Assembly (NCBI GenBank): GCA_900467185.1
Contig: UBPA01000015.1
Span: forward strand, 1 to 64,000
DNA length: 64,000 bases
Source: Hyphomicrobiales bacterium
Lineage (GTDB): Bacteria; Pseudomonadota; Alphaproteobacteria; Rhizobiales; Rhizobiaceae
Direction: 5' to 3'
This document shows, piece after piece, positions 6,231 to 48,327 of this stretch. The position numbers and the translations under genes were made by a program. Position 1 is the first letter of the stretch. The number at the start of each line of letters is the position of its first letter. The notes under the pieces are model-generated. The model was not told where the DNA came from. It did not search any database and saw only the letters and a program-made list of their open reading frames with translations.

Positions 6231-6653
6231 TTATGCCGTCTGCGGAAGCGTGTGAGCGTCCCGTTTCCCGAAGACGTCCTTTGCTGCGGAGAGGCCGTTG
6301 AGTGCTGCGGGGAAGCCGGCATAGACCGCCATCTGCATCATGATTTCTGTGATCTCGTCCCGCGTTATCCCGACATTCAGCCCCGCCTCGATGTGGACCT
6401 TCAGTTGCGGCGCTGCCGTGCCCATGGCCGTCAAAGCCGCAATGGTCGCAATCTCCCGGGCCCGCAGATCGAGGCCCGGCCGGCTGTAGATGTCGCCGAA
6501 GGGGAACTCGAGGAGATAGGTCGCAAAATCCGGGGCGATATCCGCCAGAGCGGCTACGACGTTTTCCCCCGCCTGCCCGTCGATCTCAGCGAGGGCGCGC
6601 CGCCCTCTTTCCAGCCGGCTTTCGCTCGCGCGTCGGTGTTCCTGCATCATCAT
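6231..6653 (-). CDS. carboxymuconolactone decarboxylase family protein
   Basis: This 140-residue protein aligns by eye with the gamma-carboxymuconolactone decarboxylase/AhpD fold. It has the LDLRAREIATIAALTAMG helix, the HIEAGLNVGITRDEI turn and MQMAVYAGFPAALN. It contains no cysteine, so it lacks the CxxC of the peroxidase-active AhpD branch. The start is the first of three consecutive ATGs (6653), 6 nt after AGGGA. It is encoded directly behind a MerR regulator, overlapping the end of that gene by 68 bp, a pairing common in proteobacteria. The function is probably small-molecule stress response or a decarboxylation, but cannot be fixed from sequence. Confidence 0.88.
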   Translation of the reverse strand: MMMQEHRRASESRLERGRRALAEIDGQAGENVVAALADIAPDFATYLLEFPFGDIYSRPGLDLRAREIATIAALTAMGTAAPQLKVHIEAGLNVGITRDEITEIMMQMAVYAGFPAALNGLSAAKDVFGKRDAHTLPQTA

Positions 6654-30797: not shown

Positions 30798-30932
30798 CGC
30801 GTCCCGGCGCGACGCGCGGTGGCTGACGCAGCACGTCCACGCGCGTCGTCTCGGCGAATGCCGGTCCGCCGCAGATATCCAGCGCCTTGCCGTCGCAGGG
30901 TCGAATATCGATCGTGAGAGCTCTCCAGAAAC

Positions 30933-31089
30933 GGAAAAGCCTGCCGCGGGAGGAGGTGCGGCAGGCTTTCCGAAAAAACCGAACATGGGCTGGGAGGAGG
31001 AGTGCCGATGTTCGAACAGACGTCCCTGGGAGGAGGAGTAGGACATCTGTGGAACGAAGCTTTGCGGGAGGAGGTGCATCGCTTCGTTG
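30933..31089 (-). ncRNA. multi-hairpin anti-Shine-Dalgarno small RNA, copy 1 (alpha-r14/NfeR-like)
   Basis: The minus strand encodes about 157 nt that fold into four successive hairpins. Each carries CCTCCTCCC in or next to its loop (complement at 31066-31074, 31028-31036, 30992-31000 and 30948-30956). The last hairpin (AAGCCTGCCGC with GCGGCAGGCTT) ends in TTTT and acts as terminator. A -10-like TATACT lies at 31101-31096, putting the 5' end near 31089. The loop motif is the reverse complement of a strong ribosome binding site, so the RNA probably blocks translation of many mRNAs. The layout matches the rhizobial alpha-r14 family. Ends are estimated. Confidence 0.85.
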
Positions 31090-31132
31090 GATCTGAGTAT
31101 ACGGATTTTGGCGGTCGATCCCAGAGACGTCT

Positions 31133-31149
31133 TTGCACTGCAGCCATGC
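31133..31149 (-). promoter_or_regulatory. conserved upstream element of small RNA copy 1
   Basis: The plus-strand sequence TTGCACTGCAGCCATGC is shared at 15 of 17 positions with 48371-48387, which lies at the same distance (about -44 to -60) from the second small RNA. It is a probable activator site; LysR-type regulators of the LsrB/VtlR group are candidates, by inference. Confidence 0.55.
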
Positions 31150-31192
31150 GGTAGAAGCAGGACTGAGCAGCCGGGGCAGCGACGACGTTCGA

Positions 31193-32164
31193 TCAGGCGC
31201 GAAACCGGTCGAACGCCGTCAGTCGCCGTTTGGGCGGATCCGCCTCCGGATAGCGGTAGATCTCGCTGCGCAGGAAGCGCAGTTCATCATCCACCGCCTC
31301 CTCCGCGATCTCGATCCACCAGGATTTCGGCCGCCCGTCGCTGCCGTCCGCCCAGCGATAGCCCCGCGCCTTCAGGTGGTCCTTCATGTCGAAGGGGCTG
31401 TGTTCGGCATAGATGCGCACGCGGCTGGCCTGGCTCGCCTGATGCAGTTCGGCAAAGGCCGTGGGAACGCCATCGACGGCTCGGTTCAGCACTTCCAGAA
31501 GCGCGAAGCAATCGTCGACCGCCCGGTGACCGTCATGGAAGAAGCCTGCCTGACCGATGAGATAGCCGAGCTTGGTGCCTTCATAGCCGCGTGCGGACCA
31601 GTCGATCTCCGCATTCGAACACGCCCATGCCTTGCGTTCGAAGACGGGGTGAAATGTCTCGCAGAAAGGCCGGTCGAAGGCCGCATTATGGGCAATGACG
31701 AGGTCGGCCGGTGCCACCATGGCGTCCAGTGCCGCGATGTCGATCTCCTGCCCCGCGACCATCTCGTCCGTGATCCCCGTCAGGCGCGTGATCTCCGGCG
31801 GAATGGGTGCCAGGGGCTGGCGCAAGCCGCCGAAGATGCCGGTGATATCCCCGATGTCGCCACTGGCATTATAGGTGAACGCGATGGCGCCGATCTCGAT
31901 GATCTCGTTGCGGCGATGATCGAGGCCTGTGGTTTCCGTATCCAGAATAATGCCGCGCAACGGGAAACCGGGCCGAGGCTCCGCCGCAATCGCGCGTGGC
32001 TCCAGCTTGCGCAGGATCCGGTAGCGGCCGGTACCGGTCAATTGGGCGACGAGGCTCGCTTCCGCGGCCGGGCCGGACGGCGAAGGCGCGGGCCGCGCGC
32101 GGCGTGTCGCCGGTCGGGATGTCTCGCGCGCCTCCGGCGCGAACATGTCGAACTGCATTGCCAT
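31193..32164 (-). CDS. DnaQ-like 3'-5' exonuclease domain protein
   Basis: This 323-residue protein has a low-complexity basic N-terminus (about 1-55) followed by a DEDDh exonuclease domain (about 85-255). Motif I is ILDTETTGLD, motif II NAAFDRPF after VIAHN, and motif III HRAVDDCFA, so all catalytic residues are present. The C-terminal part resembles DUF5710-like tails (MKDHLKARGYRWADG), a small fold often added to nucleases. It is a stand-alone proofreading-like or repair exonuclease, not the replicative epsilon subunit by its extra domains. The start at 32164 (ATG GCA ATG) has AGGCAGG upstream. Confidence 0.9.
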   Translation of the reverse strand: MAMQFDMFAPEARETSRPATRRARPAPSPSGPAAEASLVAQLTGTGRYRILRKLEPRAIAAEPRPGFPLRGIILDTETTGLDHRRNEIIEIGAIAFTYNASGDIGDITGIFGGLRQPLAPIPPEITRLTGITDEMVAGQEIDIAALDAMVAPADLVIAHNAAFDRPFCETFHPVFERKAWACSNAEIDWSARGYEGTKLGYLIGQAGFFHDGHRAVDDCFALLEVLNRAVDGVPTAFAELHQASQASRVRIYAEHSPFDMKDHLKARGYRWADGSDGRPKSWWIEIAEEAVDDELRFLRSEIYRYPEADPPKRRLTAFDRFRA

Positions 32165-48124: not shown

Positions 48125-48168
48125 CTTTGGGCGCCTGCGGACGCCGCCGGCAAAAGAGAGGCTCCAAA

Positions 48169-48327
48169 CGAAAAAGCCTGCCGCGGGAGGAGGTGCGGCA
48201 GGCTTTTCGATAAGAACCGAACGGCGACTGGGAGGAGGATGTCGCCATTCCTTCGAACGATCCTGGGAGGAGGAGGGGAGCGTTCGAAACACGAAGGGAT
48301 GCGGGAGGAGGTGCATCGCTTCGTTGG
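48169..48327 (-). ncRNA. multi-hairpin anti-Shine-Dalgarno small RNA, copy 2 (alpha-r14/NfeR-like)
   Basis: The minus strand again encodes four hairpins with CCTCCTCCC loops (complement at 48302-48310, 48264-48272, 48229-48237 and 48184-48192). The last is a terminator ending in TTTTT (48174-48170). The first hairpin and the terminator are nearly identical to copy 1. The two middle stems differ in sequence but still pair (TTCGAACG with CGTTCGAA; GGCGAC with GTCGCC), which supports a selected RNA structure. TACATA around 48335-48340 is the likely -10. Probable function: base-pairing to ribosome binding sites of mRNAs. Confidence 0.85.

Follow-up and report, generated by a model that had tools for sequence, protein, structure and literature searches.

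A predicted four-hairpin small RNA gene of the αr14/SmelA099 type in a genome close to Ferranicluibacter

Results

Hairpins and loop motifs

The window (the whole stretch of 64,000 nucleotides that was analysed) carries four minus-strand hairpins at 31089-30931, with CCUCCUCCC in each open loop; the last hairpin closes the gene (Table 1). A preliminary description, made from the letters alone, had reported four successive minus-strand hairpins of this kind, and both the motif positions and the fold confirm it. Minus-strand CCTCCTCCC lies at 30948, 30992, 31028 and 31066. On both strands of the window together there are nine exact copies of CCTCCTCCC, compared with a mean of 0.85 and a maximum of 5 in 100 dinucleotide shuffles. 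Four of the nine belong to this locus and four to a second copy of the array (48185-48311, with motifs at 48185, 48230, 48265 and 48303); one lies elsewhere.

In the predicted RNA fold of either copy every motif has a hairpin loop to itself, and in the folded ensemble each base of the four motifs was unpaired with a probability of at least 0.98 (copy 1) or at least 0.95 (copy 2). Folds were compared with 300 control sequences per copy, in which the spacers were shuffled base by base and the motifs were kept fixed. Copy 1 folded at -69.5 kcal/mol, compared with -35.9 ± 4.1 kcal/mol for its shuffles (z -8.1), and copy 2 gave a z of -6.9; no control was as low in either case. A broken T run, TTTTCCGTTT, comes after the 3'-most hairpin, which is rich in G+C. 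A terminator consensus scan, which permits loops of 3-8 bases, found no terminator at the locus, where the loop of hairpin 4 has about 10.

Table 1. Position of the small RNA gene, its hairpins and neighbouring features, and of the second copy, in the window
Feature	Position	Strand	Basis
sRNA gene, SmelA099-type αr14/cuckoo, about 159 nt	30931..31089	-	RF02344 match; both ends inferred from SmelA099 alignment
Hairpin 1 (5'-most)	31053..31088, loop motif 31066-31074	-	Fold; also in SmelA099
Hairpin 2	31016..31050, loop motif 31028-31036	-	Fold; covariation; arm permutation
Hairpin 3	30979..31015, loop motif 30992-31000	-	Fold; covariation; arm permutation
Hairpin 4, terminator-type, then T-rich tail	30932..30972, loop motif 30948-30956	-	Fold
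-10-like box TATACT, -12 to -7 from reference 5' end 31089	31096..31101	-	Loose TANVNT match
Conserved upstream element, -70 to -52	31141..31159	-	TGCT-N6-GCAT (31159-31146) overlapping GCATGGCTG (31149-31141)
Upstream neighbour, RNase_T-type exonuclease gene	31193..32161	-	PF00929, E 5.7e-17 (31196-32161)
Second four-hairpin copy, ends approximate	48168..48326	-	RF02344 48169-48292, 103.9 bits; fold

Family assignment and copies in the genome

The Rfam αr14 model (RF02344) matched 30932-31055 with 99.1 bits over model positions 1-123, the gathering cut-off being 58.8. The RNA thus belongs to αr14 by covariance-model score, and it also does so by having an unpaired CCUCCUCCC in each hairpin loop. 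The match comprises hairpins 2-4 and leaves hairpin 1 outside except for its last bases; the Rfam match of SmelA099 likewise excludes hairpin 1. The model omits the 5' hairpin of the four-hairpin subtype both here and in SmelA099, so annotation based on it begins one hairpin too late. Searches with the αr14 and suhB models had been proposed: the two αr14 matches are the only ones at gathering score in the window, and suhB gave no match at that score there.

SmelA099 was reported from a deep-sequencing survey as a minus-strand RNA of 160 nt at 1328175-1328334 of S. meliloti pSymA (PMC2873474). The sequence at these published coordinates also forms four hairpins when folded, its motifs lying at RNA positions 16, 53, 89 and 135. 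Of its 160 bases, 123 are identical to the window locus in a near-colinear end-to-end alignment, in which the published ends fall on 31089 and 30931; the boundaries given in the preliminary description, 30933-31089, are within two bases of these. In the narrow sense of αr14, NfeR1-like and with three hairpins, the RNA here falls outside the family, having four; taken more widely, the family extends to RNAs with four (PMC3927594, PMC4504443). Its four adjacent motif hairpins, its length of about 160 nt and its direct alignment with SmelA099 place it in the SmelA099 subtype, or cuckoo form.

Five αr14 copies in the genome score above the cut-off, and five weaker matches fall below it. Two of the good copies are those of the window; the other three lie on another contig, at G000:C9 11939, 85990 and 801784. 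Four exact motifs are present in four of the five good copies and three in the remaining one (C9:11939). Matches above the cut-off were found in 7/7 genomes searched of the genus, its own included, and at least three tandem motifs in 109 of 151 sampled genomes of the family, with none in 42; the reversed-pattern control gave 0 in all 151. The view that four motifs in one RNA are unusually rich fails, since four occur in 4/5 of the genome's own copies above the cut-off and the form recurs in other Rhizobiaceae; SmelA099 has four as well, and the publication of four-hairpin members goes back to 2011 (PMC3927594).

Strand and secondary structure

Motif numbers were counted in 86 distinct arrays, all from loci fetched because they matched, so that the counts are not a prevalence estimate. 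Allowing exact or one-mismatch motifs, 49 arrays had four, 32 had three, 3 had two, and one each had five and six. Two of the 49 (L126 and L132) were excluded as their fourth match lies beyond the terminator, and 17 of the 47 left, with mutual identity below 92%, were aligned.

RNAalifold on these 17 non-redundant sequences gave double-sided change in 22 of 31 pairs, many of which were contributed by L128 and L129. When the alignment was confined to 16 SmelA099-type sequences (15 of the 17, and SmelA099), compensatory double-sided change was found in 18 of 40 consensus pairs, the motif-3 region being imperfectly placed by MAFFT in a few rows. By hairpin the figures were 1/9, 8/8, 7/10 and 2/13 for hairpins 1 to 4 respectively. 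Permutation of the stem arms, with identical stems dropped and kinship otherwise ignored, gave for hairpins 1-3 no pairing as good as the true partners in 2000, with or without L128 and L129. For hairpin 4 the result was weak, with 13/2000 as good, or 73/2000 without the two loci.

Covariation is thus clear for hairpins 2 and 3. It is uninformative for hairpins 1 and 4, because both hardly vary among SmelA099-type copies: the stem of hairpin 1 is near-invariant and that of hairpin 4 mostly invariant. What supports the predicted hairpins 1 and 4 is their conservation and homology, not covariation; hairpin 1 hardly changes from genus to genus and lies within the transcript published for SmelA099.

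L128 and L129, both from genus g17 and related to each other, carry four-hairpin arrays with different stems and without GCATnnCTG; their fourth hairpin is perhaps an independent gain.

The strand was addressed by symmetric scoring of 198 distinct hairpins, in which G-T wobbles numbered 126 and A-C mismatches 24 (92 mismatches of other kinds set aside; binomial p 7e-18, identical stems dropped and relatedness otherwise ignored). This asymmetry favours the minus strand as the RNA. The plus strand has GGGAGGAGG in each of its four loops, and sponge RNAs with GGA in their loops resemble such an array. A plus-strand RNA trapping CsrA/RsmA in the manner of CsrB or RsmZ is nevertheless highly improbable: the wobble count is against it, the T-rich tail and the conserved upstream element are placed as expected for a minus-strand gene, and the published strand of SmelA099 (PMC2873474) agrees with the minus strand. 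CsrA (PF02599) had no match in the one genome searched here (0/1), and the same search was positive in 3 of 14 control genomes. The Csr-sponge reading was rejected on the lack of a CsrA match in this genome.

The minus strand also contains an open reading frame, 31079-30690, in which 129 amino acids could be read from an ATG inside hairpin 1. That the locus is a short protein-coding gene is scarcely credible, as motif spacing differs by single bases among homologues (for example 38, 37, 36 and 35; 44 and 45) and the reading frame would therefore shift, and as variation in hairpins 2 and 3 preserves base pairs. The coding reading was rejected since such spacing is incompatible with a kept frame. 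Wobble pairs, the covariation of hairpins 2 and 3 and an upstream element fixed in position together support a minus-strand RNA as the probable product. Assignment to the αr14/NfeR type, minus strand and length as first described are upheld by the Rfam match, the wobble asymmetry and the SmelA099 alignment.

Upstream region

Upstream sequences were compared in 52 distinct examples, many of which are close relatives. Of the 52, 48 had GCATnnCTG at -58 to -61, and 15 had the strict form TGCA-N6-GCAT, at -69 or -70. A -10-like box matching the loose pattern TANVNT lay no more than 20 bases from the reference 5' end in 39. A strict promoter scan for the sigma-70 signature, which accompanies the LsrB box in the conserved αr14 promoter, had no match at the locus. 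The LsrB box of NfeR1, TGCA-N6-GCAT, is reported at -72 to -60 (PMC10746234); the window has TGCT-N6-GCAT at -70, in the place of that box and one base off the strict half-site. In the second copy GCATnnCTG is present, and TGC-N7-GCAT is absent at that place.

The small RNA lies about 100 bases downstream of the exonuclease gene, on the same strand. It could on this ground be a 3'-UTR processing product, of the kind that follows a DUF1127 gene: CcsR1-4 of Rhodobacter sphaeroides are described as cut from the ccaF1 3' UTR (PMC8625941), ccaF1 being a DUF1127 gene according to the title of a reference in that paper, and RS0680a of Rhodobacter, with the anti-Shine-Dalgarno motif in stem loops, has been grouped as a shorter relative (PMC3927594). 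Such an origin is very unlikely here, as the upstream gene encodes an RNase_T exonuclease, not a DUF1127 protein, and the intergenic gap contains a conserved element of its own, whose distance is constant. Membership of CcsR, taken as derivation from the 3' UTR of the DUF1127 gene ccaF1, was rejected on the RNase_T identity of the same-strand upstream gene.

Related loci

Eighty loci, in named records encoding a relative of the exonuclease (a few from the same strain), were inspected. In 28 of them an array lies at most about 0.7 kb downstream of the exonuclease relative. This array carries four exact motifs in 21 loci and five in one (L018); in the other six (L014, L023, L024, L027, L038 and L051, L024 being classed by its identity to L023 across the first two hairpins) it has four hairpins, of which one shows an altered loop motif. 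In the remaining 52 loci the stretch examined, which was short in some, contained no group of at least two exact motifs. The alteration affects loop 3 in L014, L023 and L027, loop 1 in L051 and loop 4 in L038. The third motif, near 6570, reads CCTCCTCTT in L014 and L023 and CCCCCTCCC in L027, the other three being intact. Altered third loops in L014, L023 and L027 are as expected if loops are redundant.

The same decay, in L014, L023, L027, L051 and L038, could mean that a sibling copy is kept mainly as spare dosage, or to soak up a protein, and itself silences few mRNAs to any extent. The presence of five good copies in the genome is compatible with this, and only one of six S. meliloti NfeR1-locus copies was reliably detected on northern blots, according to PMC7143759. 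All four loops are intact here, however, and the upstream element has kept its position, and we consider this role quite unlikely.

Named hosts of the array include Rhizobium, Agrobacterium, Allorhizobium, Neorhizobium, Ciceribacter, Endobacterium and Ensifer. A similar stretch was found in 491 plasmid records (331 Rhizobium, 84 Sinorhizobium and 42 Agrobacterium), 96 of which cover at least 80% of the 221-base query. The nearest named organism is Ferranicluibacter rubi, with an exonuclease 92% identical and an array identical to that of G001, a genome of the window's genus.

Two arrays have more than four motifs. That of Rhizobium sp. Root1334 (L018:6495-6685) has five loop motifs, apparently after tandem duplication of hairpin 3 and part of the terminator hairpin, and may be a snapshot of module gain. 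In a genome of the family, six motifs within about 235 bases (L123:1501-1734, minus strand) were read as two adjacent three-hairpin RNAs.

Candidate target sites

We searched the genome for sites to which the loops could pair. GGAGGAGG 4-9 bases before an ATG had 47 matches, compared with 6 for the reversed pattern, a few sites being counted twice and one lying inside this αr14 sRNA gene. Thirty of the 47, those that came with loci, were translated, together with L155. A frame of at least 90 amino acids is headed by 12 of the 30 and by L155; the other 18 head no such frame. Ten of these 13 long frames were submitted to Pfam, L159, L171 and L187 being omitted as false frames or starts, judged by eye. 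Among the ten were an ABC permease (L155, which has GGGAGGAGG before its start), an EamA transporter (L185), an AraC-type regulator (L173), a Gfo/Idh oxidoreductase (L183) and, just above the cut-off, a solute-binding protein (L174); L170 and L182 had no Pfam family. These candidate sites, which are a list of matches only, would fit targets in transport and metabolism. GGGAGGAGG before ATG had 10 matches and the control 1, two of the ten being inside αr14 copies and one site being counted twice. For ntrB, the one NfeR1 target checked, which was assigned from its position before ntrC and from its sequence, there is no GGAGGAG before the start in this genome, and the NfeR1-ntrB circuit is therefore not evident here.

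Discussion

Proposed function

We give a probability of about 0.9 to the reading that the locus encodes a trans-acting αr14/cuckoo sRNA of the SmelA099 subtype, which silences mRNAs, including those of transporters, through their Shine-Dalgarno sequences by means of redundant loops. Structure, strand, homology, the conserved upstream element and the candidate target sites are supported by computation. From S. meliloti we infer that the gene is transcribed and how its transcription is controlled, as well as the way in which the RNA silences and what it does in physiology. Since just one of the six NfeR1-locus copies of S. meliloti is reliably seen on northern blots (PMC7143759), the window copy could be nearly silent. 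The promoter would be built like that of NfeR1, having an LsrB-type box near -70, GCATnnCTG near -60 and a -10-like box; transcription would begin at about 31089, and the RNA would end with the fourth hairpin. With CCUCCUCCC unpaired in each of the four loops, any one loop could base-pair to a purine-rich Shine-Dalgarno sequence and keep the ribosome from entering, which would lower the translation of a set of mRNAs including those for transporters. The binding of ribosome sites put forward in the preliminary description has been established experimentally for NfeR1 in S. meliloti, as anti-Shine-Dalgarno silencing through its loops (PMC10746234); for the window RNA it is carried over by homology and may be expected to hold.

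That description also proposed simultaneous control of several mRNAs by one molecule. This proposal is unsupported, and the loops of NfeR1 are reported to be functionally redundant (PMC10746234). In a stronger form, SmelA099-type RNAs would be multivalent through their extra 5' hairpin, one molecule holding at the same time at least two mRNAs or several sites of a polycistronic mRNA, and hairpin number would be a dial turned by tandem duplication. Hairpin numbers of 3, 4 and 5 were seen in this analysis, and 2 is reported for Rhodobacter. We consider multivalency unlikely; if it were true, the five genome siblings would restrain, in a graded way, genes whose Shine-Dalgarno sequences are strong. 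Under the preferred reading, what the four loops most likely provide is redundancy together with a raised effective dose, and not a target set for each.

Comparison with known small RNAs

The window locus looks like a further copy of a small-RNA type known from root-nodule bacteria and their relatives, with SmelA099 as a close homologue. As the type has already been described in these bacteria, the locus is ordinary, not new; what it adds is the presence, in a genome close to Ferranicluibacter, of an NfeR/SmelA099-type riboregulator that is well kept and occurs in several copies. SmelA099 (smrA6) shares with it the four hairpins, the four CCUCCUCCC loops, the length (160 compared with about 159 nt), the start relative to hairpin 1 and the upstream GCATnnCTG, which lies at -59 in SmelA099; it differs in the stem sequences of hairpins 2 and 3 and in its megaplasmid location. 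αr14 (RF02344), with NfeR1 (Smr14C2), shares the loop motif, a score above the gathering cut-off and an upstream element where NfeR1 has its LsrB box, whereas NfeR1 is described with three hairpins and the window RNA has an extra one at the 5' end.

A cuckoo RNA family was reportedly defined by Reinkensmeier and Giegerich in 2015. As described in a citing paper, the cuckoo motif comprises 2-4 hairpins whose loop motif is conserved and whose helices are not (PMC4504443); the window RNA fits that citing description, and no difference from it was found. The hairpin loops number three in RFMSmelA075 and four in RFMSmelA099, each with similar loop motifs CCUCCUCCC, and the two RNAs have been suggested to form one family with a varying number of modules (PMC3927594). 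More distant are the Rhodobacter RNAs, RS0680a and CcsR, with two stem loops and, for CcsR1-4, derivation from a 3' UTR, whereas the window RNA is encoded by a gene with its own upstream element. RS0680a is presumably a member of the CcsR group.
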